Source: Elusimicrobiota bacterium (GTDB lineage Bacteria; Elusimicrobiota; Elusimicrobia; Elusimicrobiales; UBA9959). From it: DNA of 64,000 nucleotides. The translations under genes and the position numbers were made by a program. The stretch spans positions 1 through 64,000 of the forward strand of contig JAPLKI010000018.1 of assembly GCA_026388155.1 (NCBI GenBank), in the 5' to 3' direction. The notes under the pieces are model-generated. The model was not told where the DNA came from and did not search any database. It was given only the letters and a program-made list of their open reading frames with translations. How positions within the stretch are numbered: the stretch's first letter is position 1; each line of letters begins with the position of its first letter. Below, piece by piece: positions 8,915 to 34,720 of this stretch.

Positions 8915-9283
8915 TTAATCACTATTCTTCAGGCGCTGTTTTCGGATTTTGTCGGTTTTTCGCTTGCGGAGTTTTTTGAATTCTTTCAGGCGTCCGGAAG
9001 TGGAGGGGGAAACCTTTATTTCAATTTCATCCACCAGTTCCCTGAGAGCTATAAAGCGGTTCAGCGAACGCCGGCGTTCGCGCTGGCAGCGCACGATAAG
9101 CCCCAGCGGCGGGTATTTTAGCTGCACGGTATTCGAGGTTTTGTTTATCTTCTGACCGCCATGGCCGGAGCCGCGGATAAAATTTTCCTCCACCAGATCC
9201 AGGTTTATCTGCAGGCGGGCGATACGCGCCTTCAGAGCGTCAACCTTGGCCGGTGTGATTTCCGAAAATTCCGTGAAGTTCAT
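8915..9283 (-). CDS. Release-factor-like ribosome rescue protein (RF-1 domain, ArfB/YaeJ-like)
   Basis: 122 residues from MNFTEF. It holds the peptidyl-tRNA hydrolysis loop GSGHGGQKINKTSN, followed by a segment ending in a very basic tail (KEFKKLRKRKTDKIRKQRLKN), as in ArfB and the related PrfH/RF-like proteins. It lacks the codon-recognition domains of true RF1/RF2. The likely role is freeing stalled ribosomes. A longer frame of 182 residues exists upstream, but its first 60 residues run through a repeat-rich spacer and into the end of rel and look non-coding. No strong ribosome site precedes either candidate, so the start is uncertain. Confidence 0.8.
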   Translation of the reverse strand: MNFTEFSEITPAKVDALKARIARLQINLDLVEENFIRGSGHGGQKINKTSNTVQLKYPPLGLIVRCQRERRRSLNRFIALRELVDEIEIKVSPSTSGRLKEFKKLRKRKTDKIRKQRLKNSD

Positions 9284-9392
9284 AAAGAAGATGCGCAGAT
9301 GCATAGAGGCATAGATGTGTGGAAATGCGGATAAACTGGCGACAGAAATCGCTCTTGCTACGCATCTAAATTGCTGCGCGTCTATGCATCCT
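9284..9392. repeat. Word-repeat spacer (GCATAGAGGCATAGATG)
   Basis: The left part repeats GATGCATAGA and GGCATAGATG; the right part has GTCTATGCATCC and CGCATCTAAATT, its rough reverse complements. It belongs to the class of self-complementary spacers described in the findings and separates the release-factor-like gene from rel. Confidence 0.5.
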
Positions 9393-10835
9393 CTACTCCA
9401 AGGCCTGGCCGTGTTCCCGCAGGTACTTGCGGATGTGGGAGCGGGCGCCGGCGGTTTTAACAATACCCAGCCAATCCTTTTTCGGCGCGGAGTTCCTGCG
9501 GGTGAGTATCTCGCAGATGTCGCCGCTTTTCAGTTCGTGGTCGAGTCTTGCCATTTTATTGTTCACCTTGGCGCCCACGCAGGTGTTGCCCACTTCGGAG
9601 TGTATTATGTAGGCGAAATCAATGGGGGTGGCGTGCATGGGAAGCGACTTGACCTCGCCCTTCGGGGTAAAGATAAAGATCTGGTCCAGCTCAAGGTCGG
9701 TTTTAAAGCTTTCAATAAATTCCCTGGGGCTTGAAAGGTCCTGCAGCCACTCCATCCACTGGCGCAGCCAGTTGAGTTTCTCATTTAAGTGCGCGTCCTT
9801 GCCGCCCTCGCCCATCTTATAGCGCCAGTGCGCGGCTATGCCGTATTCCGAAGTGTGGTGCATCTCATCGGTGCGGATCTGTATTTCCACCAGCTCGCCC
9901 GATGAAGCCATCACGGTGGTGTGCAGGCTGCGATAAAAGTTCATCTTCGGCACCGCGATATAATCCGTAAATGAGCCGGCGAGCGGCTTGAACACCGAAT
10001 GAACCACGCCCAGAAGGGCGTAGCAGTTTATAACCGTGTCGGTGATAAGGCGCACGCCAAGAGCGTCCTGAATGTTCTCAAAGGACGTCTCCTGCTTTTC
10101 CATCTTGCGGTATATGGAATAAAGGTTTTTGGCTCTGGCAAGTATGCGGTAGGGGACCTGTGTCGGGGCCAGGTGCGCTTCCAGCTCCGCTTTGAAATTC
10201 TCAAGCAGTTTCTCGCGCTTGGCGAAACGCAGCTGCACCTTGGCCGAGAGGCTACTGAATTCGTCGGGGTGCATATATTTGAAAGACAGGTCTTCCAGCT
10301 CGGATTTTATCTGGAACATCCCCAGGCGCTGGGCGAGAGGCGCGTAAAGAGAAAGGGTTTCGTAGCCTATTTCAAGCTGTTTTTCGCGCGGGAGAAAATT
10401 GAGCGTGCGCATATTGTGCAGGCGGTCGGCCAGCTTTATTACGATAACGCGTATATCCTTGGCCGTGGCCAGCAGCATGCGCCGCCAGTTTTCGGCCTGC
10501 GCCACGTCGCGCGAGGAGAATTTAAGCGTTTCTATCTTTGTGACGCCCTGCACCAGGTCGCAGACTTCCTGGCCGAAGTCTTTTTTTATGGCTTCGGGCG
10601 TTATCGTTGTGTCTTCCAGCACATCGTGCATAAGGCCGGCCGCCACCGTTTCCTGGTCCATCCGGAATCCCGCAAGTATTTCCGCCACGGCCTGGCAATG
10701 CGTAAAGAACAGGTCGCCCGAGGCCCGTTTCTGCTGGGCATGGGCGTCTTTTGAAAAATTCCAGGCGAGCTCAAGCAGAGTTGTGTCCTGCGTGGAATAT
10801 TCCTTGAATTTTTTAAGCAAGTCTTCCATTTCCAT
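9393..10835 (-). CDS. Bifunctional (p)ppGpp synthetase/hydrolase Rel, C-terminally short
   Basis: 480 residues. The N-terminal HD hydrolase is intact in its key residues (H46 and H70-D71 in GLMHDVLEDT). The synthetase domain follows with RAKNLYSIYRKM, GVRLITD and YRSLHTTV, and then a TGS domain (IFIFTPKGEVKSLPMHATPIDFAYIIH). The protein stops soon after a short helical stretch (ARSHIRKYLRE) and lacks the zinc-finger and ACT domains that bring full-length Rel/SpoT to about 700 residues or more. The stop is not near any frameshift sign, so this looks like a natural short form. It likely sets alarmone levels; loss of the regulatory end should alter ribosome-linked control. Confidence 0.9.
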   Translation of the reverse strand: MEMEDLLKKFKEYSTQDTTLLELAWNFSKDAHAQQKRASGDLFFTHCQAVAEILAGFRMDQETVAAGLMHDVLEDTTITPEAIKKDFGQEVCDLVQGVTKIETLKFSSRDVAQAENWRRMLLATAKDIRVIVIKLADRLHNMRTLNFLPREKQLEIGYETLSLYAPLAQRLGMFQIKSELEDLSFKYMHPDEFSSLSAKVQLRFAKREKLLENFKAELEAHLAPTQVPYRILARAKNLYSIYRKMEKQETSFENIQDALGVRLITDTVINCYALLGVVHSVFKPLAGSFTDYIAVPKMNFYRSLHTTVMASSGELVEIQIRTDEMHHTSEYGIAAHWRYKMGEGGKDAHLNEKLNWLRQWMEWLQDLSSPREFIESFKTDLELDQIFIFTPKGEVKSLPMHATPIDFAYIIHSEVGNTCVGAKVNNKMARLDHELKSGDICEILTRRNSAPKKDWLGIVKTAGARSHIRKYLREHGQALE

Positions 10836-10845
10836 AGTATAAAAT

Positions 10846-10927
10846 CAGCGTAGAGGGGGCAGCGGTCAGGGGTGAGGGAAGGAGTTTCTTATTCCTCCCC
10901 CAACCGCTAGCCCCTCGCCCCTATTCC
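10846..10927. repeat. Word-repeat hairpin spacer
   Basis: Left arm built of GCGGTCAGGGGTGAGGG, apex AAGGAGTTTCTTATT, right arm CCGCTAGCCCCTCGCCCC: the arms are reverse complements with mismatches. The apex is shared with the spacers at 14838, 24178, 34596 and 50217. Confidence 0.6.
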
Positions 10928-11650
10928 CTACCCCAGAGCGGTTATGGCGAGCACCGCGCCGTAGCCGAGGGCGTAAAAAACCGGCGTAAGACGGTCGTAG
11001 GTTTTATGCAGCCCCGGTAAAATATCGGCCATGGCTATATAAAGAAAAGAGCCCCCGCTGATTCCGAGCAAAAGGGATTCGGTCCATGGGTTTACGCTCA
11101 GAAAAAAAGGTTCCACTATCAGCGCCCCAAGGGGCGTGGCGAGCGCCAGCAGCAGGCTTAAATACACGGCCCGCTTGACGGTGCGGCCTGAATGAAGCAG
11201 GAGCGAGATCAGGGCTATGCCGTCGGCGAGCTTGTGCAGGATAACGCCAAGCGAAATGTTAAAGCCGGCAAGCGAACCCGCTTTGAAACCTACGGCGATG
11301 TTGAAACCGTCAAGCACCGAGTGCACCGTCATGGCGGCCAGCGCGAAAGTGCCAAGCGCGTGTTCGTGCACTTCGCAGTTTTCCATATATTCGCCGGCGG
11401 AATTGATTACCGTGAAATTTTCAAGCGAGAAAAGGGAGAGCAGCGCCATCAGGCAGCCGTAGGCCGCGGCTCCGGGGTTCAGTCGCCACGCTTCGGGGAA
11501 AATGTCAAGGAAAGCCGCCGACAGCAGCACCCCCGCTGAAAAAGCCAGCGTGCGCGAAAGCAGGCGTTTGTTCACGGAGCCGAATCTGGCGGTCAGTCCC
11601 GCGCCAAGCATTGTGAAGGCCACGGCAATAAGGCTGAAAAGATAGATCAT
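10928..11650 (-). CDS. ZIP-family metal transporter
   Basis: 240 residues with about eight hydrophobic segments. The metal-path helices carry the ZIP signatures HSVLDGFNIAVG (about residue 110) and HKLADGIALISLLLHSG (about 135-150), with an acidic segment before them. These proteins move zinc, iron or manganese into the cytoplasm. The His-rich loop common in larger ZIPs is nearly absent (CEVHEHA only). It lies between rel and the msbA operon on the same strand, set off by word-repeat spacers on both sides. Confidence 0.88.
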   Translation of the reverse strand: MIYLFSLIAVAFTMLGAGLTARFGSVNKRLLSRTLAFSAGVLLSAAFLDIFPEAWRLNPGAAAYGCLMALLSLFSLENFTVINSAGEYMENCEVHEHALGTFALAAMTVHSVLDGFNIAVGFKAGSLAGFNISLGVILHKLADGIALISLLLHSGRTVKRAVYLSLLLALATPLGALIVEPFFLSVNPWTESLLLGISGGSFLYIAMADILPGLHKTYDRLTPVFYALGYGAVLAITALG

Positions 11651-11654
11651 AAAA

Positions 11655-11780
11655 ATTATCGTTACAGCATTAGTAGACAGAATTCAGTAGTTCAGAATTC
11701 AGAATAGTGGAACCGTTCCCGTTGCCGGTGTTTTCATTCTGACTACTGTATTCTGACTTCTGGCTACTTGAGCCGTTCCA
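11655..11780. repeat. Word-repeat hairpin spacer
   Basis: Left words of the type CAGAATTCAGTAGTTCAGAA, right words ATTCTGACTACTGTATTCTG; the two sides are imperfect reverse complements around a GC-rich middle. It separates the ZIP gene from msbA. Confidence 0.6.
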
Positions 11781-11783
11781 AAA

Positions 11784-13553
11784 TTAATTCTGCGCCTCGT
11801 ACAGCGTTTTGTAAACCCCGTTTTTAGCCAGCAGCTCTTCATGGCTGCCTGATTCGGCCAGCTCACCATGCTTTAACACAAAAATTTTATCCGCGTTCCT
11901 GACGGTGGACAGGCGGTGCGCCACCATTACCACCGTGCGCCCTTTCAAAATACGCTCTATGGCCGCCTGCACCACCTGCTCGCTTGCCGTGTCCAGGTTT
12001 GATGTGGCCTCGTCCAAAAGCAGGATCTCGGGTTTTTTTATTATGGCCCTCGCTATGGCAAGGCGCTGGCGCTGTCCGCCGGAAAGCTTCACGCCCCGCT
12101 CACCCAGGCGGGTATCGTACCCTTGCGGCATGTCCTTTATGAAGCCGTGTACGTCGGCCGCCGTGGCGGCTTCAATAACCTCATCCATTGAGGCGCCCGG
12201 CTTGCCTATGGTGATGTTTTTAAAAACGGTGTCGTCAAAGAGTATGGTGTCCTGCGTCACCAGGCCCATGTGGTCTTTCAGCTCTTTGGTGTCTATCTCG
12301 CGCAACTCCCGCCCGTCTATTAAAACCCGGCCGGAGACAGGGTCAAAAAACCTGAGCAGCAGGTGTATAATGGTGGTTTTTCCGGAGCCCGACGGCCCCA
12401 CGAAGGCGGCCACCTGCCCCGGCTCAATCGTAAAACTGAGGTTTTTAAGCACCTGCGTGTCGCGGGAGGGATACTTGTAGCCCAGGCTGTCAAATTCCAC
12501 GCGGCCCTGCACTGTGCCCAGGGGCTTCGGGTTATTTACTATGGTCACGGTCGGTTTTTCATCCAGGATCTGTAAAATGCGTTCCCAGGAAGCAAGGCCC
12601 AATTGCAGGTTTGAGTTTAGGTTCGCTATGTTCTTAAGAGGCATGTAGGCGGTAAAGAAAGCCGCGATAAATGAAAAGAAAGCGGCCGTGGTCATGGTGC
12701 CTTCAAAAATGGCGTGCCCTCCCAGGTAGATCATAACTACCAGGATGATGCTGCCTATAAATTCCATAAGCGGGCCGGTCATGGCGGCGGCGCGCAGATA
12801 ACGCATGGTTTTTCCGAAGTATTCGTTGTTTGAGGAACGGAATTTGGCTATGGCTTCTTCTTCGTAGTTAAAGGCCTTTACCACGGTCATGCCCTGCAGG
12901 CTTTCCTGGAAACGGTGGGAGATCTCGCTCACTATCACCTGGGATTCCATGCTGGACTTGCGCATTTTTCTGCCCAGTATTTTCATCGTGGAGGAGGTGA
13001 TAGGTATGATGATAAGCGAGATAAGCGCGAAGCGCCAGTTCACGTAGAAAAGAACGAATATCAGCGCCGACACGGTAAATGTGTCGCGGATAAGGTAAAG
13101 CGGCACGAACTGCACGGTGGACTGCACATTGTTCAGGTCGTTTATTACCCGGCTCATCACGTCCGAAGAGCGCTTGCGCCAGTAAAATTCTATGGACAGG
13201 CGGTGAATGTGGGTAAAAAGGTCGTCGCGGATCTGCTGGACCGCTTTCTGGCCGATCCAGCTCATCAGGTAGCCGTTGATGTATTCGGTCGTCATGCGCA
13301 GCGCGAACAGTATGGGCAGGCCTATAAGCACCAGGCGCAGCATGCGCAGGTTCTTCTCCATGAACACGCCCTGTATTACGGGGCCCATGAGATAAACCAC
13401 CCCGCCGCGCAGCGCGGCAAGCATTATCATGGAAAGCGCCGCATGCACAAATTGCTTCTTATAGGGTTTTATGTATTCGAAAAGGGCCTTAGCCAGGTAA
13501 GAGTTCTTTTTTTTGCGGTCTTGCGCATGGGCCGTGGGTTTTTTATCGGACAT
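11784..13553 (-). CDS. msbA: Lipid A export ABC transporter MsbA-like
   Basis: 589 residues, a half transporter with an N-terminal six-helix membrane domain and a C-terminal ATPase. ATPase motifs: Walker A GPSGSGKTTIIHLL, signature LSGGQRQRLAIARA, Walker B ILLLDEATSNLD and the switch His in VMVAHRLST. The first 20 residues are polar and Lys-rich. Position next to lpxB supports a role as the flippase for lipid A core across the inner membrane; by sequence alone it could also be another type IV exporter of lipids or peptides. Confidence 0.85.
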   Translation of the reverse strand: MSDKKPTAHAQDRKKKNSYLAKALFEYIKPYKKQFVHAALSMIMLAALRGGVVYLMGPVIQGVFMEKNLRMLRLVLIGLPILFALRMTTEYINGYLMSWIGQKAVQQIRDDLFTHIHRLSIEFYWRKRSSDVMSRVINDLNNVQSTVQFVPLYLIRDTFTVSALIFVLFYVNWRFALISLIIIPITSSTMKILGRKMRKSSMESQVIVSEISHRFQESLQGMTVVKAFNYEEEAIAKFRSSNNEYFGKTMRYLRAAAMTGPLMEFIGSIILVVMIYLGGHAIFEGTMTTAAFFSFIAAFFTAYMPLKNIANLNSNLQLGLASWERILQILDEKPTVTIVNNPKPLGTVQGRVEFDSLGYKYPSRDTQVLKNLSFTIEPGQVAAFVGPSGSGKTTIIHLLLRFFDPVSGRVLIDGRELREIDTKELKDHMGLVTQDTILFDDTVFKNITIGKPGASMDEVIEAATAADVHGFIKDMPQGYDTRLGERGVKLSGGQRQRLAIARAIIKKPEILLLDEATSNLDTASEQVVQAAIERILKGRTVVMVAHRLSTVRNADKIFVLKHGELAESGSHEELLAKNGVYKTLYEAQN

Positions 13554-13562
13554 ATCAAAGCG

Positions 13563-13685
13563 TAGATTGAAGATTCAAGATTTCAGATTGAAGACCAGAG
13601 GGGGAGTTTTAAATCTTAAATTTTGAATCATAAATTTTAAATCTTAAATCTGGAATCTTAAATCTTGAATCCTGTTCCTGTGTCC
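13563..13685. repeat. Word-repeat hairpin spacer
   Basis: Tandem variants of AGATTCAAGATTT on the left and AAATCTTGAATC, AAATCTTAAATC on the right. Positions 13572-13583 and 13660-13671 are a perfect 12-bp inverted repeat. Between msbA and lpxB. Confidence 0.65.
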
Positions 13686-14834
13686 CTAATTCAGGTAAGA
13701 AAGTATTTTTTCCGCCGCCCGCGTAGCTGCGCCAGGCGTTCCGAGCATGGCCCTTAAGGCGGAGAATTCCGCCCGCATGGCCGCCATTTTAGGGGGATTA
13801 TTGAACAGGGCGAAGGCTTCCCTGGCCAGAAATTCAACTGTGGCCTTTTCCTGGATAAGTTCTTTTACCGCCGGTTTTTTAAGCAGGATGTTTACGAGCG
13901 AAATGTAGGGGACCTTGATCACTTTGCGCGCCACTTCATACGTGAGACGGGGCACTTTGTAGGCCACCACCATAGGCACGCCAAGCAGGGCGTTTTCAAG
14001 GGTTGCCGTGCCTGAGCAGGTGAAAGCGAAGTCCAGGGCGGCGCGTTCTTTGTAGCCGTATTCGCGCACTATTTCAATATCCTTTGACCAGTATTTTTCC
14101 GCCCGTTCCAGGAAAGGCACCAGGTTTTCGTCCGGAAATTCCGGCACGGCAAACACTTTCGCTTTGGCGTTCGGACAGCTGGCCTTTATTTTGTAGAACG
14201 CGTTCAGGAAAATAGGCAGATGGCGCGAAATTTCGGTCTTTCTTGAGCCGGGCAATATGCCTATCTGCCAGGCATTGTCCGGCGGCGGGAAAGTTTTCTC
14301 CACCGGCTCGGGCAGCAGGTCTAAAAGCGGATGCCCCACAAAAGTGGCGTTGCCCCCGGCCTTTTTGTAGATGGTTTCTTCAAAAGGAAAGATGACAAAA
14401 AGCTCTTTCGTGAGTTTCGCGAGCTTGGCTGCCCGGCTCAGGCGCGAAGCCCACACTTGCGGGCTGATATAATAAAAAGCGGGAATATGGCGGTGAGCCG
14501 CAAGCCCCAGCATCTGGTGGTTGAAGCCATAAAAGTCAACGGCTATAACGCAGGCGGGACGTTTTTCCTCAAGATAGCGGCGCACCAGCTTCAGCAGTTT
14601 CAACCAGAGGAAAAAATGCTTGAAGGGTTCCGAAAAGCCCACGGCTCCCACAGAAACCAGGTTGTAAATAAAATGGGAGGACACCTCCTGCATGCGCACT
14701 CCGCCTATGGAGGTGACCGAAAGATCAGGGTCTTTCTCTTTCAGCGCCCTGATCAGGTTCGAGGCGTGCAGATCTCCCGACGGGTCGCCGGCGACTATAA
14801 GAATGTTTTTTGTTGTGGGAGCGATTTTGGACAT
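13686..14834 (-). CDS. lpxB: Lipid-A-disaccharide synthase LpxB
   Basis: 382 residues, family length. A GT-B glycosyltransferase (GT19) that joins UDP-2,3-diacylglucosamine and lipid X into the lipid A disaccharide at the inner membrane. The N-terminal family motif is present as AGDPSGDLHASNLIRAL, followed by SIGGVRMQ. Further typical pieces are YISPQVWASR, FPFEETIYKKAG, FVGHPLLD, LPGSRKTEI and a TCSGTATLENALLGVPMVVAYK segment. It sits between msbA and the Gfo/Idh gene on the same strand, in the gene order known from other bacteria that use LpxI. Confidence 0.95.
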   Translation of the reverse strand: MSKIAPTTKNILIVAGDPSGDLHASNLIRALKEKDPDLSVTSIGGVRMQEVSSHFIYNLVSVGAVGFSEPFKHFFLWLKLLKLVRRYLEEKRPACVIAVDFYGFNHQMLGLAAHRHIPAFYYISPQVWASRLSRAAKLAKLTKELFVIFPFEETIYKKAGGNATFVGHPLLDLLPEPVEKTFPPPDNAWQIGILPGSRKTEISRHLPIFLNAFYKIKASCPNAKAKVFAVPEFPDENLVPFLERAEKYWSKDIEIVREYGYKERAALDFAFTCSGTATLENALLGVPMVVAYKVPRLTYEVARKVIKVPYISLVNILLKKPAVKELIQEKATVEFLAREAFALFNNPPKMAAMRAEFSALRAMLGTPGAATRAAEKILSYLN

Positions 14835-14837
14835 ATA

Positions 14838-14930
14838 AAATCAGGGGCCAGGGGCTGGCGATTAGGGGTTGGGGAAGGAGTTCCTTATACCTACCTTATC
14901 CCCTAGCCTCTATACGCTAGCCGCTGCCGT
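14838..14930. repeat. Word-repeat hairpin spacer
   Basis: Left arm AGGGGCTGGCGATTAGGGGT, apex AAGGAGTTCCTTATA, right arm TATCCCCTAGCCTCTATACG. Same family as 10846, 34596 and 50217: the G-rich word and the apex are shared. Confidence 0.6.
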
Positions 14931-14931
14931 C

Positions 14932-16002
14932 TTACGACTTATCTATCCCGGCGTTTTTCAGGCCTTCTTCAACCACCATGCCGGCGGCATGGCCGATATC
15001 GGAAATGGAGCGGGCCAGGGACTGGCCGGGCTCATTCGTCGGCGAGCCGGAAACCTCAAAGCGCCTCATGGCTTCGGTTATGCTAAGCGCCAGGCGCATG
15101 GCTTTAAGACCTTTTTCTCCGCTGGGGGCCGGGGTCTTGGAGGTTTTTATGCAATCAATAAAGTGATAAAGCTCTTCTTTTATGGGCTCTTTTTTTTCCA
15201 GTTTTGGGAACAGTATCTCTATGTCTTTCAGGGATTTTACCACCGGAGTTTTCTTGTGGTAGATCTTAAGGCGGGCGCTCACATAGTCCACCGAGAGATA
15301 GGCGTCCTGCTGGTAGATGCGCATGCGGCGGGAGTTCTCCATGCTGACGCGGCTGGCGGTGATGTCGGCCACGCAGCCGTTTTTGAATTTAATGCGGACA
15401 TTGGAGATGTCCTCGTGATTGGAAAGTATGCTTGCGCCTATAGCTTCAAAGGAAGCCACTTCGGAATCTATCATGGTAAGGATGATGTCCAGATCGTGTA
15501 TCATCAGGTCCAGCGTCACGCCCGTAGCCGCCACGCGCGGGTCGTACGGGCCGAGGCGCTCTATGGTGACATAGCGGGGGTTTTTTACATGCTTCAGCGT
15601 TTCAACCACGGCGGAATTAAAGCGCTCTGAATGGCCCACCTGCAGGACCACATTGTTTTTTTCGGCAAGGGCCAGCAGGCGGCGGGCGCCTTCTTCAGAA
15701 TCGGCCAGGGGTTTTTCGATCAGCACATGGATGCCGGCTTCCAGGGCTTTAACGCCTATTTCCGCGTGATATTCCGTGGGGGCGGCTACAACCAGGGCGT
15801 CCACCTGTGTGAGCATGTCAAGATAGCTTTTGTAAGCCACACAATTATAGCGCCAGGCCAGCGTCTGCGCGCGCATAAGGTTCGGGTCGGAAACACCCAC
15901 AAGTTCAACTTCGGGCATTTTGGACAGGGTGCGCGTATGGAAGCCGCCGAGTTTTCCGGCGCCGGTCACGCCGAAACGCATTTTCTTTTCTTTTTCAGCC
16001 AT
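14932..16002 (-). CDS. Gfo/Idh/MocA-family oxidoreductase of the lipid A cluster
   Basis: 356 residues from MAEKEK. This start is chosen over one 12 codons upstream because AGAGGAC lies just before it. The N-terminus is an NAD(P)-binding Rossmann fold (MRFGVTGAGKLGGFHTR); the family lysine is in IEKPLADSEEGA (about residue 95). The C-terminal alpha/beta domain has GVTLDLMIHDLDIILTMI. The family oxidises or reduces sugars and sugar nucleotides. Its place between lpxI and lpxB is known from other bacteria; GnnA, which oxidises the 3-OH of UDP-GlcNAc for 3-amino lipid A, belongs to this family, so a GnnA-like role is possible but no GnnB-like aminotransferase is adjacent. Confidence 0.8.
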   Translation of the reverse strand: MAEKEKKMRFGVTGAGKLGGFHTRTLSKMPEVELVGVSDPNLMRAQTLAWRYNCVAYKSYLDMLTQVDALVVAAPTEYHAEIGVKALEAGIHVLIEKPLADSEEGARRLLALAEKNNVVLQVGHSERFNSAVVETLKHVKNPRYVTIERLGPYDPRVAATGVTLDLMIHDLDIILTMIDSEVASFEAIGASILSNHEDISNVRIKFKNGCVADITASRVSMENSRRMRIYQQDAYLSVDYVSARLKIYHKKTPVVKSLKDIEILFPKLEKKEPIKEELYHFIDCIKTSKTPAPSGEKGLKAMRLALSITEAMRRFEVSGSPTNEPGQSLARSISDIGHAAGMVVEEGLKNAGIDKS

Positions 16003-16203
16003 GGTGTCCTCTAAATCAAAATAAACCGCTGCCGGCATGAGGCCGGTCTTATATTATAATTCTACTAAATGTGCGGGTGATATGTGAGGTATGAGGAGGC
16101 TGTTTTTTAAATCCCGGCGTCACCCGGCGCACGAAGTATTTAATTTTTTATAAATCCCCGCCCTGCCGATACAGCCATTCGCGCCCTCAAGGCGGCTATG
16201 GGC

Positions 16204-19011
16204 CTACAGATCGTTAAGGGCGTCGAAGAAATCCATCGGGTCGGCGAACCTCTGCGACGGTTCCGGCTCCATCGCCCGGGTTATAAGCTCGTCAATTCCG
16301 CTCGGCAGCCAGGGCAGCATCCCGCTGACCTCGCGGAACTCCTTTTCGTTCTTCTGCTTCTGTATATCCCCTACGGTGAAAGGGAGCTTCCCCGTCAGCA
16401 TCTCGTAAAGGCATACGCCCATGGCGTAAATGTCGGATTCCCGCTTGACTATCCCCATATATTGTTCGGGCGCCATATAGGCGGGCGTTCCGGACGTGGT
16501 CTGGTGGGTCACTCTCGTGAGGCTTTCACGCAGTTCGCTCGCCAGCCCGAAATCCATCACCTTGGCGTTGCCGTTCTTGTCCAGCATGATGTTGGCAAGC
16601 TTCAGGTCCCTGTGGATGACGTTGCTCATGTGGGCGTAGTGGACCGCTCCGCACACGCCTTTAAAAATATCTTTACATTCCTGGAGCGGCAAACGCCCTT
16701 TTTCTTTCAGCAGGTCGGACAGGGTTTTGCCGTCCACATAGTCGAATATCAGGTATATTTCGTCTTCCTGTTCCACTATCGCCTGCACGCCCACGATGTT
16801 CGGGTGCTGTAGCCGGCTGACTATCTTGGCTTCCTGCACGAACCTCCCGTGTTCCTCGGGATATTTTTTGAGCCAGGAATGCATTTTTTTGATGGCCACT
16901 TTCCGGGCCATCTGCCTGTCCCAGCCTTCATAGACCGTGGCCATGCCGCCCTCTCCGAGTTCGCCTTTTATCTCGTATTTTCTGTCAAGCACCTTGCCGA
17001 AAAGCGAAACGCCGGAGCGGGTAAATTGCTGTCCTGCGGCCGCGCTGTTCTGCGCGGGCTGCGCGACGGTAACCAGAAGTCTGGCCTTCAGGTCTCCGTA
17101 ACGCGCGGAAACGTCCTTATAGCCGCCTAAGCCGGCGTCCAGCATGCAGCGGAAAATATCGCGCGCGAGTTCCGCGTCTTCCTTCTGCTCGCAAAATGCC
17201 GCCAGATTATAATACAGGGAGGCGTTCTCGTCCGCTTTAACGGACGCTTTCAGGGCTTCGAACAGGCCGCGGTGAATTATACGGGCCAAGCGGGTTTCTC
17301 CGTGCTCATGACAAAGGACGGCCAGGTTTTCATAATGCTGGATGTTCTCCGTAAGCAGCCTGTTCCCTTTGAGCGACTCAAAGATGTTGCCTGCCCTGGA
17401 GAAATCCCCGAGGCGTATATATATTTCGAAGAGCCTGGCCCTGTCCGCATCATCTATCTTAAACGTGGTTTTCCGGGAAAGAGTTTCAAGCGCTTCCTTA
17501 TAGTTTCCGGCCTCCATGAGGTTGCTGATCTGCACGGAGCGGTAAGAAGTGGCGTCCGGCTCCGCGCTTTTTACAGGTTCCGGCTTGGCTGCGGGCCCGG
17601 CTAAATTGCGCGTTTCCCCGGGGAAGGGCCTTTTGTCCGGGTGGAAACTTGGGGGAAATTGGCCGGCTTGAACTTCCCCTGAATTATCGTCCCTGCGGAC
17701 CGATTCGGCCTTCATGGAATAAGAGGCTAAAACACTTACACAGGAGACGGTGCCCGAGATCAGCAGCCCGGCCAGTATTTTTATCACGTTATCCAGGGGG
17801 AAGTTGAAGAAAATAAAACCGGCGGCCAGTGAACCCAGCGCCGAGTATATGGCCAGACTTATCAAAAGCTTGCCGTGGAACTCGCTTTCCGGAGGCATGA
17901 AAAAGCCGAAGAACATCCAGTGTATGTCCACGTTCATTTCTGTCGCCAGGGGCTGCAGCTCTTTCCGTATCCTGGCGTGATCGTCCTTGAAAGTCAGGTA
18001 TGTGACGCAGAGGAATATAGCCGCCGGCAGAAAAAATCCCGCAACACAATAAAGTATCCAGTCATTTTCGGCTGGTTTGCCGGCTTTCGAACGGCCGGTT
18101 TCAGCCCGGTCGACTGGCGTCTCCGGGGAGGTGAGGCTTTGGGAGGGTTTGGACCAGCTGGAGAAGCTTTGCGCATTTTGCGTGTCCGCTGTTGCGGTCT
18201 GACCGGCAACGGCCGTGTTCCGGAGGCTGACGGGTGTGACATCCGGCTGTATCCGGGGCGGCAGGTTGGAAGGACGCCTGGCCGGCGCGTTGAATGGCTT
18301 TCCGCTGATATTTTGCAGCCGGCCCAGCCACCCCGGCCTGCCGCGTTGCAGGCGGCCCTTCTTTTCCTCTTCAAGTTTTTGATACGCGGAGTCGCGGGTC
18401 TTGCGCGCGTCGTTAAAATCCGGCTGCACTCTGAGGGCCGCGTCAAAATCCGCTATAGCTCTCCTGTACTGCTTCTGCATGTAGAAAACGTCCCCTCGGT
18501 TGTTGTACGGCGCGGCGTCGCGGGGATTCAGCTCGATGGCCGCGCTGTAATCCTCAACGGCCCTGTCGTATTCCCCCTTTAGATAGTAGGCCGAGCCGCG
18601 GCCTGTGTAGGCGTTGGCTTTGGTTTCAGGGCCGTCGCAGGGCGACCAAAGGGCGAGCGCTTTGGTATAGTAATGTATCTTCGCGTCCGGGCCCTGAACG
18701 TTCATGGCGGAAGAAAGCGCGGGCTTGAAGAGCGACATCCCGCCTTTGCAGGCGCCGCCGCGATTCCCCGGCATTTCCCGGGGGGCGGCTCCTTTCGCAT
18801 CTATTATTTTAGGCTTATAAGCTTTGCGGGCGTCGTTCCACGGACGGCACCTCCACCCTCCGGAGAAGGACTCGCAGGAGTCGCCGTCCGCGCAGGCGAG
18901 GGACTGGCCCCCGGGAAGTCCCTCGCACAACTCCGCCCCGAAAACAGCCGGGACGCGGGAGATAAGCAATAAGCCGGCAAAAAAACATTTACCGGCAAAA
19001 TTAACACGCAT
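16204..19011 (-). CDS. Membrane Ser/Thr protein kinase with two TPR regions
   Basis: 935 residues from the chosen start. The upstream 36 in-frame residues are dropped because a signal peptide (MRVNFAGKCFFAGLLLISRV) begins here. Order: export signal; a Cys-containing stretch; TPRs (about 110-210: AYTGRGSAYYLKGEYDRAVEDY, PYNNRGDVFYMQKQYRRAIADF); a Pro-rich linker; hydrophobic helices (about 310-450); a second TPR/helical region; and a C-terminal kinase (about 670-930). The kinase has GELGEGGMATVYEG, VAIKKM, HRDLKLANIM (near 800), DFGLA and a TPAYMAPEQ activation segment, so it looks active. The topology suggests a periplasmic sensor part and a cytoplasmic kinase. Target unknown. It interrupts the lipid A gene order. 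Confidence 0.82.
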   Translation of the reverse strand: MRVNFAGKCFFAGLLLISRVPAVFGAELCEGLPGGQSLACADGDSCESFSGGWRCRPWNDARKAYKPKIIDAKGAAPREMPGNRGGACKGGMSLFKPALSSAMNVQGPDAKIHYYTKALALWSPCDGPETKANAYTGRGSAYYLKGEYDRAVEDYSAAIELNPRDAAPYNNRGDVFYMQKQYRRAIADFDAALRVQPDFNDARKTRDSAYQKLEEEKKGRLQRGRPGWLGRLQNISGKPFNAPARRPSNLPPRIQPDVTPVSLRNTAVAGQTATADTQNAQSFSSWSKPSQSLTSPETPVDRAETGRSKAGKPAENDWILYCVAGFFLPAAIFLCVTYLTFKDDHARIRKELQPLATEMNVDIHWMFFGFFMPPESEFHGKLLISLAIYSALGSLAAGFIFFNFPLDNVIKILAGLLISGTVSCVSVLASYSMKAESVRRDDNSGEVQAGQFPPSFHPDKRPFPGETRNLAGPAAKPEPVKSAEPDATSYRSVQISNLMEAGNYKEALETLSRKTTFKIDDADRARLFEIYIRLGDFSRAGNIFESLKGNRLLTENIQHYENLAVLCHEHGETRLARIIHRGLFEALKASVKADENASLYYNLAAFCEQKEDAELARDIFRCMLDAGLGGYKDVSARYGDLKARLLVTVAQPAQNSAAAGQQFTRSGVSLFGKVLDRKYEIKGELGEGGMATVYEGWDRQMARKVAIKKMHSWLKKYPEEHGRFVQEAKIVSRLQHPNIVGVQAIVEQEDEIYLIFDYVDGKTLSDLLKEKGRLPLQECKDIFKGVCGAVHYAHMSNVIHRDLKLANIMLDKNGNAKVMDFGLASELRESLTRVTHQTTSGTPAYMAPEQYMGIVKRESDIYAMGVCLYEMLTGKLPFTVGDIQKQKNEKEFREVSGMLPWLPSGIDELITRAMEPEPSQRFADPMDFFDALNDL

Positions 19012-19149
19012 AAAACTATTGTATAAAACTTTAATAACCTTAAAGTTGCCGGGGCTGGAAAATGCCGGCGGGATCGGTTCGCGGGGACCGGGAGTTTCAG
19101 CGCGCTTATGAGGGGTCAATTTTCAGGGGAAAGTCAACGCCGCGAGCCC

Positions 19150-19350
19150 TTATTTGCCGTTGTCCGTGGGAGAACTGAGAGTTTGGGCCGCGCCGCTTAT
19201 AAGGGTCTGTAATTGCGCAAATAGCTGGGGTATGTATCTTCTGAGAGCCGTGCCGGTGATCAACACCACCCCTGTTATAACGGCCAGCATCAGCAGATAT
19301 TCCACCGTATTCTGGCCTTTTCGGTGTCTAAATATCCTGTTCATTTTCAT
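19150..19350 (-). CDS. Short pilin-like protein with class III-type signal
   Basis: 66 residues. A basic leader (MKMNRIFRHRKGQ) precedes NTVEYLLMLAVITGVVLITG, a hydrophobic helix with Glu at about position 5 after the predicted cleavage site, as in Flp/Tad pilins and class III signal proteins. The rest is a short Ser/Thr-rich tail. It may be a minor pilin or pseudopilin; no secretion or pilus genes are close. It lies about 140 bases upstream of the kinase on the same strand and could share its transcript. Confidence 0.65.
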   Translation of the reverse strand: MKMNRIFRHRKGQNTVEYLLMLAVITGVVLITGTALRRYIPQLFAQLQTLISGAAQTLSSPTDNGK

Positions 19351-19607
19351 TGCACGGTTTCCTGCGGATTAATATAATTTAGCACTAAAAGCCGCGGTGT
19401 GCAATAGAAAAGTACCCTTGCCGCTGCGGGCAAACTCCGGCGGCAGGCCTCCACCCTATCGTGCGCCGCTTCTATAAGTATCTGAATGTTTCCCTGTGAT
19501 TCCATATAAAATAAACCGGCCCTGCCGTGGGACGGGAGCGGGTTATGTTTCGTTATTATGTAAAATACCAGTGTGTCTTTTACCTATGCCGCTGAAATGA
19601 GGATAAT

Positions 19608-20816
19608 ATGAATAACAATAACCTGTCTGATGGGGTGGAAAAAGAAGAAAATTTTGCCGAAATGTTTAATAATAACTCTATGGAAACGGACCGGCTGGAA
19701 CCGGGACAGAAGATAGAGGCCCCCATAGTAAAAATAACCGCGGAATGGGCGCTCCTTCAAGTGGGCGGGAAGGGCGAGGGGTATCTGGACAGGAAAGAAT
19801 TGCAGGACGAAAACGGCAATCTGACCGTAAAAGAAGGCGACAAGGTCCGTGCTTACTTCATGTTTTCGGAGAACGGCGAAATGCGCTTCACCACGAAAAT
19901 AGGGTCGGGCCCGGCTGCCCGCGCCCAGCTTGAAGACGCCTGGAAGAACGGCGTTCCCGTTGAGGGAACGGTAGCCAAAGAAATGAGGGGCGGCTTTGAA
20001 ATCAGCATCAGCGGGGAAACGCGCGCTTTCTGCCCGTTCTCGCAGATGGGGCTGCGGCGGGAGGAGAACAAGGAAAGTTATCTGGGAAAGGTCCTGATGT
20101 TTGAAATAATAGAGTGCGGCGAGAGGAATATCGTCCTTTCCCGCAAAGGCATCCTGGGGCGTGAGAGACAGGAAAGAACAGCGGTTCTTAAAGAAACGCT
20201 GAAAGAGGGCGCGAGAATAAAAGGGACCGTGACCTCCCTGCAGAAATTCGGCGCCTTTGTCGACATAGGAGGCGTGGAAGGCCTGCTGCCGGTTTCGGAA
20301 ATAGCCTGGAACCGGACTGAAAACGTGAGCGACATCCTCTCAGTCGGTCAGAAGGTGGAGGTGATAATCAAAAGCCTGGATTGGGAGAACGAAAAAATTT
20401 CCTTCAGTCTTAAAGATACGCTGCCGGACCCCTGGGATATGGCCGCGCAAAACTGGATCCCCGGTTCATATCACACAGGTATTGTATCCCGGCTTGTCCC
20501 GTTCGGCGCTTTCGTCACGCTGGGCGAAGGCGTGGACGGACTTATACATATCTCCCGCCTGGGCGGCGAGAGGCGGATACAGCATCCGGACGAGGTATTG
20601 AAGGCGGGCCAGTCCATTGAGGTGCGCGTGGAGTCGGTGGACCGGGAAAACAAGAAGATTTCGCTTATTCCCGCCGATGTCAGCCGCGAGGAAGAAGAAA
20701 CAGCGGCCACTTTGAAGCAGTACCAGCAGCGGGATCTATCGGAACCTCAGCTTATGGGTTCATTCGGGGATCTGATCGAACAGCAGCTGCAAAAAAAGGG
20801 GAAGCCTGAGGACTAA
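19608..20816 (+). CDS. S1-domain RNA-binding protein (ribosomal protein S1-like)
   Basis: 402 residues with four S1 repeats: an N-terminal divergent one (GQKIEAPIVKITAEWALLQVGG), a second less typical, then two clear ones (GTVTSLQKFGAFVDIGGVEGLLPVSEI; GIVSRLVPFGAFVTLGEGVDGLIHIS). Shorter than the six-domain S1 of E. coli but like the four-domain S1 proteins of Gram-positives and other phyla. It probably helps mRNA loading on the 30S subunit or acts as a general RNA chaperone. GAGG lies about seven bases before the ATG. It stands alone, divergent from the pilin-like gene. Whether it is the main S1 or a paralog cannot be told. Confidence 0.85.
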   Translation: MNNNNLSDGVEKEENFAEMFNNNSMETDRLEPGQKIEAPIVKITAEWALLQVGGKGEGYLDRKELQDENGNLTVKEGDKVRAYFMFSENGEMRFTTKIGSGPAARAQLEDAWKNGVPVEGTVAKEMRGGFEISISGETRAFCPFSQMGLRREENKESYLGKVLMFEIIECGERNIVLSRKGILGRERQERTAVLKETLKEGARIKGTVTSLQKFGAFVDIGGVEGLLPVSEIAWNRTENVSDILSVGQKVEVIIKSLDWENEKISFSLKDTLPDPWDMAAQNWIPGSYHTGIVSRLVPFGAFVTLGEGVDGLIHISRLGGERRIQHPDEVLKAGQSIEVRVESVDRENKKISLIPADVSREEEETAATLKQYQQRDLSEPQLMGSFGDLIEQQLQKKGKPED

Positions 20817-20854
20817 AAAGATTTAGGTTTATAGGGGAATTTTTTAACGAGTTC

Positions 20855-20991
20855 GCGGGTCCCGCCGGGGGAGTGGGTTCCAAAAACCAGGGTCGGGGCA
20901 CACCGTGCCCGCCCTTCCCTTCCTCGGTCTCGCCGCTTGCGCAAGTCTCGGCCTCCGGAGGGTTTTTTTCACCCACACCCCCGTCACCCGC
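20855..20991 (-). ncRNA. Structured element C, copy 2
   Basis: Pairings: 20855-20860 with 20986-20991; 20867-20871 with 20978-20982; 20873-20878 with 20971-20976; 20896-20901 with 20905-20910 (GGGCAC/GTGCCC); 20917-20923 with 20957-20962 (CCCTTCC/GGAGGG, one bulge); apex CTTGCGCAAG. Relative to copy 3 the paired bases change together (GGACAC/GTGTCC and CGCTTCC/GGAGCG there). Here it stands without element E. The sense is assigned by alignment with copy 1. Confidence 0.65.
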
Positions 20992-21031
20992 TCCATTGAT
21001 ATGTTTGCCGCGTTTAATATTCAATAATTTA

Positions 21032-21066
21032 CTAGCCCGAATCCTTCAATTGAAGGATCGAGCTAG
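21032..21066. repeat. Palindrome with CTTCAATTGAAG core, copy 1
   Basis: CTAGC ... GCTAG ends enclose ATCCTTCAATTGAAGGAT, a perfect 18-base palindrome (21041-21058) preceded by CCGA. The same core with longer perfect arms is at 44079-44114. No T-run follows, so it is not a standard terminator. Confidence 0.6.
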
Positions 21067-21146
21067 AGGTTATAAGATAATTTTCTTAACTTCAGCCTTC
21101 AGTCGCTGACAACACCATAGGCCAGCGACAGGCCAGTGTCACAGCC

Positions 21147-21803
21147 CTAAGCCTTCAGCCTGCATTCGTTGGCCAGGAGCTCTTCGGCTTCGGCGGTGAG
21201 CGTATTCAGGATGTTTTCAAGTTCCGCGGCTTTAGCTGCTACATCGTCGGTTTCCGCCACGGCAAACGGCGCGCCGTAAACGGCCTGGATGCGGCCGAAG
21301 GGGAGGGGGAACTGGTAGTGGTCCCAACTGGGGAGAATTTTCTTTTTTGAAAGGGCGCACGCGACCGGTATCAGCGGCGCGCCTGCTTTCTGCGCCAGAT
21401 ATACCACGCCGGGCTGCACCTTGAAGACGGGCCCGCGGGGGCCGTCGGGCGTGATGGCTATTGAGTAGCCGCCGCGCGCGGCTTTTATCAGGCCGCGCAG
21501 CGACATAAAACCGCCCGAAGTGGTGGACCCGCGGACAAAAGTAAAGCCGAAGCGCTTCAGTATGCGGGCCATATATTCTCCGTCTTTGCTCTTACTGACC
21601 AAGCCGCAGATACTGCGGTTCCTGTGCAGGTAAATCATCAATACTTCTTGGCGGTGCCAGAGGGCATAAATTGCCGTGCCGGGGTGGTTTTTTATGCCTT
21701 TTATTGAAATTTTGGAGGTAAGGCCTATCAGTTGTATGTAAAGCCAGGCAAGCCAGGAAAGCAGGGTGTGTGCGGGTGAGCGTTTGTAAAGAAGCTCGTT
21801 CAT
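21147..21803 (-). CDS. Lysophospholipid/lipid A acyltransferase family protein (DUF374)
   Basis: 218 residues. The segments ALWHRQEVLMIYL, LVSKSKDGEYMARILKRFGF, VRGSTTSGGFMSLRGLI and ITPDGPRGPVFKVQPGVVYLAQ match the DUF374/LpxL-related acyltransferases. One hydrophobic helix near the N-terminus anchors it in the inner membrane. The usual HX4D motif is replaced by the WHR...DGE arrangement of this subfamily. It likely adds a secondary acyl chain to lipid A or its Kdo-linked precursor. It ends the first lipid A block and follows lpxI across a word-repeat spacer. Confidence 0.82.
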   Translation of the reverse strand: MNELLYKRSPAHTLLSWLAWLYIQLIGLTSKISIKGIKNHPGTAIYALWHRQEVLMIYLHRNRSICGLVSKSKDGEYMARILKRFGFTFVRGSTTSGGFMSLRGLIKAARGGYSIAITPDGPRGPVFKVQPGVVYLAQKAGAPLIPVACALSKKKILPSWDHYQFPLPFGRIQAVYGAPFAVAETDDVAAKAAELENILNTLTAEAEELLANECRLKA

Positions 21804-21881
21804 AATAGGGAGCGAATAGTAAGAAAGCGAATAGCGAATAGTGAATAAAAAATTTCCTTAATCGCACTATTTGCTTTCTTA
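21804..21881. repeat. Word-repeat hairpin spacer
   Basis: Left words AATAGTAAGAAAGCGAATAG, right words TATTTGCTTTCTTACTATT (continuing to about 21896 inside lpxI). About 19 bp pair with one G-T wobble. The last codons of lpxI (GEANSK) are written in this repeat. Confidence 0.65.
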
Positions 21882-22751
21882 CTATTTGCTATTTGCTTCC
21901 CCAAACGACTGTTCGTTTTCGGCGCCAAAAACGGTTACCCCGGTCTCTTTGGCGGCGGCCAGAAAGTCTTCCAAGCCGAGTATCAGCGTTTTTCCGGCTT
22001 CGATCACCAGCGTGTCCGCGCCGGCGTCTTTCATGTTCCGCAGCGTGGGCGCGCCCACAACCGGCAGGTCAAAGCGCATGTCCTGGTCCGGGCGGGCCAC
22101 CTTAACAACCATCATGGCCGGGCCTTTACGCCCCTGCTCGCGCAGGCGGAGGAAAATTTCACCCGCCCGTTTTATGCAGGCGTCTGTGCCTTCCTGGGCT
22201 TCGGCCGCCAGCACTATACGGTCGCGCAACACCACGGTAAGGCCTATATCCAGGGCGGCCAGGGTCTTCGCGGCTTTCCAGCCGAACGCGGCGCATTTAA
22301 GGCTGTCGCCTGAAAGTTTCCTGCCGGCCATCAGGCCCGGCTTCATAAGAAGATGTTCCAGCAGAGTGGCGGAATTTACAAGCTCTATGCCGTCAGCGGC
22401 AAGTTCTTCGGCGACTGCGCCGAGGAGGGCGTTCGCTTTTTTATCTTTAAGTTTGAAAAGCAGTTTTGCGGCGCGCAGGTCCGGCATGATCCCCCCGAAG
22501 ATCGAGACATGCGGCACTGAGCCCGCCATCAGAACTTTTGTAACGCCGTGTTTTTTAAAGAATTCAATAGGTCCGCTTATCTGGCCCAGCTTAAAATAAG
22601 CGGTTCCCTCGGCGTACTTTTCTATCTCTTTCGGGGTAATGCCCTGAAGCCCTACGATAAATAACTTCCGTCCGGCCTTTTTAGCCTCAGCCGCGAACAG
22701 CAGCGGGAAAGAGCCTCCGCCGGATATCAGGCCTATTTTATCATCAGTCAT
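21882..22751 (-). CDS. lpxI: UDP-2,3-diacylglucosamine hydrolase LpxI
   Basis: 289 residues, DUF1009 family. It cleaves UDP-2,3-diacylglucosamine to lipid X and UMP and replaces LpxH. Family features: KIGLISGGGSFPLLFA at the N-terminus, GQISGPIEFFKKHGVTKVLMAGSV, and ALDIGLTVVLRDRIVLAAEAQEGTDA and PDQDMRFDLPVVG in the C-terminal domain. No LpxH-like gene is in the window. The start overlaps the end of lpxA by eight bases, pointing to translational coupling. The final residues EQSFGEANSK are encoded by spacer repeat sequence and are probably an added tail. Confidence 0.94.
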   Translation of the reverse strand: MTDDKIGLISGGGSFPLLFAAEAKKAGRKLFIVGLQGITPKEIEKYAEGTAYFKLGQISGPIEFFKKHGVTKVLMAGSVPHVSIFGGIMPDLRAAKLLFKLKDKKANALLGAVAEELAADGIELVNSATLLEHLLMKPGLMAGRKLSGDSLKCAAFGWKAAKTLAALDIGLTVVLRDRIVLAAEAQEGTDACIKRAGEIFLRLREQGRKGPAMMVVKVARPDQDMRFDLPVVGAPTLRNMKDAGADTLVIEAGKTLILGLEDFLAAAKETGVTVFGAENEQSFGEANSK

Positions 22752-23556
22752 TGGCGGTTTCAGAGAGAGCTTTTAAATCCCGGCGCGGGCGGGCTATGCC
22801 TCGCTTGGAACTTTCGCAGAAATCAAGTATAAGCGCGGCTTCCGGCGGAAGTTTTTCTCCGCGCAGGCGGGCTATGGCGTCTTTAAGGAGCAGGCCGCCG
22901 AAAAACAGCGTTTTAAAAACATGTTTTATGGATTTTATGCTTTCGCGGGATATGCCGTTTCGCCTCATCCCTACGAGGTTCAAGCCCACGGGTTTGGCCC
23001 GGTCGCCCTGGGCGATAACGTAGGGGATTATGTCCTGGTTGGCCATGGCGCCGCCTGAGAGCATAGCGAACTTCCCTATGCGGGTGAACTGGTGTATGCC
23101 GACAAGACCCGAGATGAGGGCGCGGTCGCCGATGTGCACATGCCCGGCGGCGGCGGCGGAATTTACCATTATTATATTGTCGCCCAGGCGGCAGTCGTGG
23201 CCCACATGGGAGTTGGCCATCAGCATGCAGCCCGAGCCCATTGAGGTGAGGTTTGTGGCGTGTGAGCCGCGATGCAGTGAAACGCCTTCGCGGATAATGT
23301 TCGAGTCGCCCATGGTGAAACGGGTGTGCTCGCCGTGATACGAGTAGTCCTGCGGGGGCATGCCTACGTAGGCGGCGCCGGTAAATTGGTTGTTCTTCCC
23401 GATGGTGGAGAATTCTATTATGCAGTGCGGACCGACATAAGTGCCCGATCCTATCCGGGTGTCGTCGCCTATTACGGTGTAAGGCCCTATTTCCACATCC
23501 TTGTCTATCTGGGCTTTGGGATGTATAACAGCCGTAGGGTGTATTTTGGTCGGCAT
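22744..23556 (-). CDS. lpxA: UDP-N-acetylglucosamine acyltransferase LpxA
   Basis: 270 residues from MPTKIHPT. An in-frame ATG 17 codons upstream is rejected because that part is spacer repeat and GGAG lies just before the chosen start. Left-handed beta-helix hexapeptide repeats fill residues 5-190, followed by the helical C-terminus. The catalytic His is in ANSHVGHDC (H117 and H120 match E. coli H122 and H125). HQFTRIGKFAML and YVIAQGDRAKPVGLN are family hallmarks. It transfers the first acyl chain to UDP-GlcNAc (or to a 3-amino analogue; see the Gfo/Idh gene). Confidence 0.95.
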   Translation of the reverse strand: MPTKIHPTAVIHPKAQIDKDVEIGPYTVIGDDTRIGSGTYVGPHCIIEFSTIGKNNQFTGAAYVGMPPQDYSYHGEHTRFTMGDSNIIREGVSLHRGSHATNLTSMGSGCMLMANSHVGHDCRLGDNIIMVNSAAAAGHVHIGDRALISGLVGIHQFTRIGKFAMLSGGAMANQDIIPYVIAQGDRAKPVGLNLVGMRRNGISRESIKSIKHVFKTLFFGGLLLKDAIARLRGEKLPPEAALILDFCESSKRGIARPRRDLKALSETAND

Positions 23557-23576
23557 TTTATGTCTCCGTAAAAAAT

Positions 23577-23694
23577 CCAGGCTGAAGGCTGAGGGCTGAA
23601 GGACCAAGGCTTAAAGTTTACCTCGTATTTTTTCCCAAAAGTGAGCCAAAGTACGGGGTTTATAAGATAATCGTTTCAACTTCAGCCTTCAGCC
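23577..23694. repeat. Word-repeat hairpin spacer
   Basis: Left arm CAGGCTGAAGGCTGAGGGCT, right arm CTTCAGCCTTCAGCCTTAAG. The right side also contains TTTATAAGATAATCGTTTCA, nearly identical to a stretch at about 21070. Between fabZ and lpxA. Confidence 0.65.
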
Positions 23695-24156: not shown

Positions 24157-24177
24157 AATATCAACCTTTAAACGAGA

Positions 24178-31726: not shown

Positions 31727-31728
31727 GC

Positions 31729-33640: not shown

Positions 33641-33641
33641 C

Positions 33642-34690: not shown

Positions 34691-34720
34691 ACTGAGCACA
34701 ATATCAGATTAAATTAACCC

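Follow-up and report, generated by a model that had tools for sequence, protein, structure and literature searches.

Many intergenic spacers of an Elusimicrobia genome hold hairpins in which one arm is written in tandem variants of a short word and the other in its reverse complement (word hairpins). They resemble decayed remnants of small mobile elements; in its full version such an element carries the gene of the 23S rRNA intervening-sequence protein (IVP), which until now has been known chiefly from insertions in bacterial rRNA. We consider it likely that they belong to a family of small elements, widespread and probably selfish, in which full forms carry a gene and short forms have lost it by deletion. 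Direct support comes from IVP genes enclosed by word arms, from short copies that in two families are deletion derivatives, from the many copies found within a genome, from turnover among sister species, from an empty site, and from purifying selection on IVP.

Word hairpins in the window and across the genome

The window, a stretch of 64,000 nt, comes from a draft genome of Elusimicrobia (G000; 3.36 Mb, 25 contigs). Its LpxB is 95% identical to that of MAG UBA9634 and 91% identical to that of MAG GWA2_51_34, and two genomes of the same genus (G001 and G002) represent sister species. An earlier note had listed 12 spacers of the window as word hairpins, among them those of a dense stretch at 9 to 25 kb that includes relA/spoT, an msbA-like gene, lpxB, an lpxI-like gene, and fabZ. 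Here, each of the 12 was given explicit coordinates and compared with 200 dinucleotide shuffles. The hairpins that the note had named were confirmed: all 12 folded better than shuffled sequence of equal composition (MFE z = −2.8 to −8.5; in no case did more than 1 of the 200 shuffles reach the same stability). Ten of the 12 had a 7-base period (lag-7 self-match z = 2.9 to 7.4). The exceptions were the hairpin at 9284, with 8-base words (best lag 16), and that at 33506, with a best lag of 9. The words of 7, 8, and 13 letters described earlier are mostly a single 7-base period in differing phase. Scoring of the whole spacer gave weaker values at 9284 (MFE z −2.5), 13563 (−1.9), and 50217 (−0.8), because the spacer is long or an arm enters an open reading frame (ORF).

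The focal hairpin (13563 to 13672; word AGATTCA/AGATTTA; MFE z −3.5, lag-7 z 7.4) had 19 matches in G000, itself included, with a similar loop in L002 and L006. Its orthologous spacer in G001 and G002 holds a GGTTCAC-word element in place of AGATTCA words, and no IVP-bearing parent was found for the AGATTCA word. The hairpin at 11655 is a short derivative of an IVP element (11668 to 11775, minus strand; word CAGAAGT/CAGAATT), as judged from an alignment with 12 other copies and from its parent, IVP gene L075; it retains the IVP start, MKTPAT, from 11737 down to 11720. Hairpins of the TAGGGGT class lie at 10846 to 10932 (MFE z −3.4, lag-7 z 6.1), 14843 to 14928 (apex AAGGAGTTCCTTA; −3.6 and 5.4), and 34600 to 34695 (−5.0 and 5.8). 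By eye, words like those of the 10846 hairpin stand 5′ of the G000 IVP gene L091, and spacers orthologous to that of the 14843 hairpin carry GATTACA and CACAAGT elements. The word TAGCGAA makes up the hairpin at 21808 to 21898 (−8.5 and 4.3), whose spacer in G001 contains a GxxExxY gene flanked by GATTACACAGATT arms, and occurs together with TAGGGGT at 50217 to 50300 (−3.9 and 4.9), where the right arm extends into the next ORF. The word AAGGCTG was found at 23577 to 23706 (−6.4 and 4.9). Four further hairpins have words that also flank genes elsewhere: CATAGGC at 24180 to 24270 (apex AAGGAATTCCTTA; MFE z −6.6, lag-14 z 4.8) at IVP gene L077 of G000; CACAAGT at 31590 to 31728 (MFE z −2.8, lag-7 z 2.9, best lag 8) at IVP gene L097 of G002; the 9-base word GATTACAGTGA at 33508 to 33645 (MFE z −4.8, best lag 9) at GxxExxY gene L086 of G002; and the 8-base-period word GATGCATAGAGGCATAG at 9290 to 9396 (MFE z −4.3, best lag 16), the kind of which stands at IVP gene L272 of a distant genome.

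Genome-wide, we scored 188 spacers of 50 to 300 nt in 464 kb of G000, or ∼14% of the genome (the window plus 20 stretches of 20 kb, 400 kb, at spread positions, 2 of the 20 having been picked for an IVP gene there). The MFE z fell below −3 in 72 spacers. The mean lag z of these was 2.70 at lag 7, 2.21 at lag 14, and 1.21 at lag 21; the other lags tested all gave means from −0.59 to 0.53. Fifty-one of the 188 spacers passed both cutoffs (fold and lag). Chance or composition as the source of the hairpins was ruled out by shuffles and lag statistics. The 5′ arm was the more purine-rich in 43 of the 51 word hairpins, compared to 16 of 32 other hairpin spacers, and a central apex of the A(A/G)GGA...TCCTT type was present in 15 of the 51 (1.4 expected in shuffles; 1 of 65 nonhairpin spacers). 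When the heptads of the right arm were shuffled, a median of 64% of the excess stability was retained, and only 11 of 48 real hairpins exceeded this control by two standard deviations: the arms agree in word more than in exact word order.

Repeats of other kinds were also seen. Positions 43887 to 44021 of the window consist of 15 tandem copies of the 9-base unit CACGGCTCG, inside or ending an ORF. A different dispersed palindrome, AACCCGAATTCTTCAATTGAAGAATTCGGGTT, occurs with its variants at ∼21030 to 21070 and ∼44080 to 44120 of the window and at ∼4600 to 4640 of L119.

IVP genes between word arms and their deleted forms

The PF05635 profile (23S rRNA IVP) matched in 11 of 25 genomes and at six places in G000, one of which adjoins a reverse transcriptase. 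The product of the full-form gene is TIGR02436, "23S rRNA intervening-sequence protein" (scores of 130 and 119 against a cutoff of 24), a four-helix-bundle protein and a relative of the solved XCC0516 of Xanthomonas campestris (PDB 2gsc). We examined 50 of the 60 listed PF05635 matches. Read by eye, the own and sister-genus loci have inverted word arms around most IVP genes, with the 5′ arm adjoining the start codon. The Elusimicrobia IVP genes viewed seem to lie between protein genes and not in a 23S rRNA helix; likewise, all 12 window hairpins have protein genes on both sides, and none is in such a helix.

Inverted 7-mers proved too short to discriminate, and 10-mers were used instead. Among 45 usable IVP genes (five were dropped for long frames or short flanks), 26 had an inverted 10-mer common to both flanks; the corresponding figures were 22 of 289 for control genes and 58 of 1,774 for cross-genome flank pairings. 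The 5′ side was more purine-rich in 38 of the 45, compared to 142 of 289 controls. The mean flank signal of 41 of the 50 loci, leaving out those that were Avd-like, fused, partial, or short, had a period of 7/14/21. A phylum-wide search of 119 genomes, 39 with matches, then supplied a held-out set of 24 new IVP loci from 24 further genomes, all of which were analyzed. Matching inverted 10-mers flanked 19 of the 24 (27 of 552 cross pairs), and the 5′ side was purine-rich in 22; the best lag was 7, 14, or 21 in 11 genes, and for the remaining genes it was mostly 8 or 9. Inverted 10-mers were absent from the flanks of 19 of the 45 first-set genes and 5 of the 24 held-out genes. At the third position, the orthologous IVP genes L094 and L098 differ at 25 of 117 sites, compared to 8 of 234 at positions 1 and 2, a pattern indicating that IVP is under purifying selection. 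At two loci, L059 (G001:C26:20497) and L065 (G004:C133:16494), the IVP gene is apparently fused in frame to a longer frame (436 to 437 amino acids), and at L059 the right word arm is seemingly translated.

Word hairpins also tracked the presence of IVP genes. Nine IVP-negative genomes (G005, G008, G013, G014, G025, G026, G029, G033, and G035) had 1 word hairpin in 86 spacers, unconvincing by eye, and 11 IVP-positive relatives had 22 in 145. This correlation follows phylogeny in part, and the genome points are not independent: family f2 is uniformly IVP-negative, and within family f1 the comparison is 1 of 57 spacers versus 22 of 145.

Short copies were compared with gene-bearing ones at the DNA level. 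The G001 IVP gene L075 has CAGAAGT arms, and its start (ATGAAGATGCCGGCGACTAG) and end are retained without the middle in short copies of G000, with such copies at 11 sites. What remains of the IVP gene in the copy L237 is 20 nt from the 5′ end together with 24 nt from the 3′ end; in L243 it is 44 nt from the 3′ end (E = 1.6 × 10^−16). In a second family (GGTTCAC), the G001 gene L095 matches L114:10098-10197 of G000 over 49 nt of the ORF end (E = 2 × 10^−8) and, over 29 nt (97% identity), the copy that G001 itself has in the spacer orthologous to the focal one. Searched in six frames, 74 word-hairpin loops and 15 loops of family copies gave no IVP-profile signal above shuffles; descent is therefore established at the DNA level for two word families only. 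In these two, judged from the retained ends, short forms are internally deleted IVP elements. For the other words, common arms would point to the same descent. A candidate IVP motif in the loop at 23577 was dropped after the profile search.

GxxExxY genes of Elusimicrobia carry the same kind of word arms as IVP genes; at six such loci the flanks were word-like, with mean lag peaks at 8 and 9. A division of 7-base words to IVP and 9-base words to GxxExxY was ruled out by held-out IVP genes at lags 7, 8, and 9. Since GxxExxY genes share this type of arm, it may not be proper to IVP. The hairpin could have come first, as an independent repeat family in whose loops IVP and GxxExxY genes are secondary inserts, preferring hairpin loops as in rRNA helices. 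Two unrelated gene families in the same kind of arms would suit such an origin, as would the excess of short forms over ORF forms (51 word hairpins in the 14% sample versus six PF05635 matches genome-wide). We nevertheless regard it as unlikely: pieces of the IVP gene remain in short CAGAAGT and GGTTCAC copies, the purine-rich arm adjoins the start codon like a ribosome-binding site, and word hairpins follow IVP across genomes. A gene-bearing element with deleted derivatives remains our preferred reading, and the earlier suggestion of a dedicated element is supported.

The only genes seen inside elements were those for IVP or GxxExxY; no transposase or recombinase was seen there. A reverse transcriptase as the motor was not supported: PF00078 was not found in the IVP-bearing draft genomes G002, G003, G006, and G011, of which the first three have word hairpins as well as IVP genes. 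Separately, a reverse transcriptase with an adjacent four-helix-bundle gene was noted at G000:C17:45666-48012 and on contigs C23 and C221 of G007; these loci are probably diversity-generating retroelements with Avd. Avd is a four-helix bundle related to IVP, and the reverse transcriptase-adjacent loci L092, L107, and L108 had 0, 1, and 5 inverted 7-mers, respectively, common to both flanks, which puts them low in the range for IVP loci.

Word families and their turnover between sister species

The earlier note held that the word differs between spacers. This is so locally, but genome-wide the words belong to a limited set of dispersed families. Sixteen of the 51 hairpins were of the TAGGGG class, 8 of CATAAGC, 5 of CAGAAGT, 5 of TAGCGAA, and 4 of GTAGAGT; eight fell into small classes, and 5 were unclassified. 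The CAGAAGT hairpin L124:12713-12807 had many matching places in G000, G001, and G002, and the CATAAGC hairpin L119:7017-7116 had several in G000 and more in G002.

Turnover was assessed in orthologous spacers of G000, G001, and G002 in three regions. Across 19 orthologous word-hairpin pairs, the median share of common 8-mers was 0.00 (at least 0.25 in 2 pairs), and the proteins flanking the compared spacers were about 75 to 94% identical, so that words do turn over faster than flanking genes, the check that the earlier note had set. By eye, 33 of 40 filled orthologous pairs had different words. One spacer (L124:12672|12826) contains a CAGAAGT element in G000, a GATTACACAGATT element in G001, and nothing in G002, where it is 37 nt long; at this single empty site no target-site duplication is readable, the flanks being too diverged. 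A terminus like GTAACTRCTCAGG is not general to all elements; reading by eye placed it in the CAGAAGT family, in part of the GGTTCAC copies, and in two elements of the GxxExxY class. Common outer ends like GTAACTRCTCAG...CTGAGYAGTTAC were noted in the GxxExxY elements L084 and L088 (G015) and the CAGAAGT elements L237, L239, and L240.

These families bear on self-templated copying, the other origin offered in the earlier note, whereby polymerase template switching within a hairpin makes and renews the arms and any spacer grows its own word without a mobile element. The agreement of arms in word over order fits slippage, and slippage also predicts strongly unequal arms, such as those of a G002 spacer with about ten CTGACTC units. 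Against this, the same imperfect arms recur across 13 aligned copies of the CAGAAGT family, which therefore spread by whole-element copying and not by the remaking of one arm from the other at each event; in addition, families are dispersed in many copies, and genes are present inside arms. As a general origin of the hairpins we find self-templated copying distinctly improbable, but it may still account for the drift of words within an existing element.

The hairpins could also be ordinary regulatory or mRNA-processing structures under selection, such as terminators or stabilizers. Flanking genes were co-directional for 46 of the 51 word hairpins (139 of all 188 spacers), as such a role would have it. 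However, terminator-like sites (GC stem plus T run) at 9000 to 25500 of the window numbered 27 versus 24.5 expected, no excess, in agreement with the earlier view that these are not terminators; the hairpins matched no Rfam family; and sequence is swapped wholesale between sister species, with one spacer empty. These observations leave a regulatory role very unlikely. A PADLOC search likewise returned no defense-system match.

Movement by REP-associated (Y1) transposases, as in a REP/RAYT-type system, deserves hardly any credence: Y1 genes do occur in G000 (C21:73623, C20:96641, C16:190295, and C22:284568; L190 to L193) and in both same-genus genomes, G001 and G002, but there was no lag-7 signal at 20 Y1 loci, which have their own nonperiodic flanking repeats, and the IVP-negative genomes G005, G008, and G013 have Y1 genes yet only 1 word hairpin in 46 spacers. 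The hairpins are thus distinct from known REP families, as noted earlier. Many Y1 genes are flanked by repeats such as AAAAGGTAGCAGGTACCTTTTT, a hairpin family separate from the word hairpins.

Proposed element and comparison with known systems

In the element that we propose, a full copy would consist of a 5′ arm of tandem words, one small gene, and a 3′ arm of inverse words. The arm words would have 7 bases, sometimes 8 or 9, and the purine-rich 5′ arm, adjoining the start codon, could act as a ribosome-binding site. The gene inside would encode the IVP four-helix-bundle protein or, in a second class, the GxxExxY protein. Most copies would be short forms, in which internal deletion has removed the gene and left the arms; the hairpin at 11655 is one of them, and by extension the others in the window would be too. 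The RNA of elements between co-directional genes would fold into a stem, which, by analogy with 23S rRNA intervening sequences, would probably be cut by RNase III, and the element may thereby be excised from the RNA. Each family would inherit its own word, which it could keep because the arms need only match each other, and repeat slippage together with drift may create new words. The simplest account is whole-element copying, with word drift and slippage between events. Such elements may be actively mobile; IVP, acting in trans on short copies, would be the most likely driver, with perhaps an even chance of being so.

Two old puzzles may be one, namely, the nature of heptamer repeats in bacterial spacers and the role of IVP in 23S rRNA intervening sequences (IVS); should the hairpins prove to be IVP elements and products of their deletion, both become testable in a single system. 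An element conserved in the period and mutual complementarity of its arms, and not in sequence, would be unusual among mobile DNAs; conservation without sequence identity would explain why similarity searches missed the family.

Miniature inverted-repeat elements of the MITE type are short, multicopy sequences with terminal inverted repeats that arise by internal deletion. Word hairpins resemble them in being short and multicopy with inverted termini and, in two families, in having an internally deleted, ORF-bearing parent. Unlike in MITEs, the parent has no known transposase (only IVP or GxxExxY), and the end sequences vary. No target duplication was readable at the one empty site, whose flanks are too diverged.

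The STRR heptamer repeats of cyanobacteria, reportedly going back to Mazel in 1990, resemble word hairpins in their tandem 7-base units in spacers. For STRR, the available part of one source (PMC2670836) describes such units with hairpins and names no carrier gene, whereas we found IVP genes of cyanobacterial plasmids between such arms. Intergenic tandem heptamers are also described in Xanthomonas and Nostoc (PMC4692102, with 70 and 75 convergent pairs in Xanthomonas), Beggiatoaceae (PMC4679880), and Geobacter metallireducens (PMC2700814). In those papers they are treated as regulatory or G-quadruplex sites, unlike the word elements here, and the accessible literature on cyanobacterial, Xanthomonas, Beggiatoaceae, and Geobacter heptamers names no carrier gene. 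Xanthomonas campestris also has the solved IVP homolog XCC0516 (PDB 2gsc).

The 23S rRNA IVS of Coxiella and Leptospira, IVP-bearing hairpins in 23S rRNA (PMC4990558), are likewise among the closest known systems: they have the same IVP/S23 protein family and inverted arms forming a stem. In Coxiella, heptamers stand just 5′ of the start codon of IVP (S23p), in a number varying between strains (PMC4990558). Among the word elements, full forms but not short forms have the IVP/S23 protein, and stem-forming terminal inverted repeats are present. They differ from the 23S rRNA IVS in lying between protein genes, in many copies, with family-specific words and many gene-less short forms. Apart from the Coxiella heptamers, we found no link between heptamer repeats and IVP/S23 genes in the literature covered, which is largely that outside subscription journals.

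A wider reading is possible, and we hold it tentatively, at somewhat less than an even chance: a single class of mobile element would extend across several phyla, and its recognition would depend on how the arms pair and on their period, no fixed sequence being required, so that the word is free to drift and each word family is one lineage of the element. The 23S IVS, the cyanobacterial STRR, and the Xanthomonas, Geobacter, and Beggiatoaceae heptamers would then be its forms or remains, driven by IVP-like proteins.

IVP relatives were found in 29 plasmid records, of which we examined 14, mostly from other phyla, including cyanobacteria and Bacteroidota. Inverted 10-mers were common to the flanks of 9 of the 14 genes; the mean lag-7 z was 4.68, and lag 7 was best in 10 (Anabaena, Calothrix NIES-22, two Nostoc, N. 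edaphicum, Pseudanabaena, Geminocystis, Stanieria, Trichormus, and Riemerella). The remainder comprised a third Nostoc (lags 6/14/7), Gemmatirosa (8), Calothrix PCC 7716 (none), and Azospirillum (weak). By eye, the Azospirillum copy lies in 23S-like sequence and has heptad-like arms. The flanking words of the Nostoc HK-01 and Pseudanabaena plasmid genes run in the same direction and are not inverted. For GxxExxY plasmid genes, no common 10-mers were present in the 3 examined of 8 records. On plasmids of Anabaena sp. 90 (L210) and Pseudanabaena (L216), an IVP gene with word-repeat flanks was observed between cas6 and cas4.
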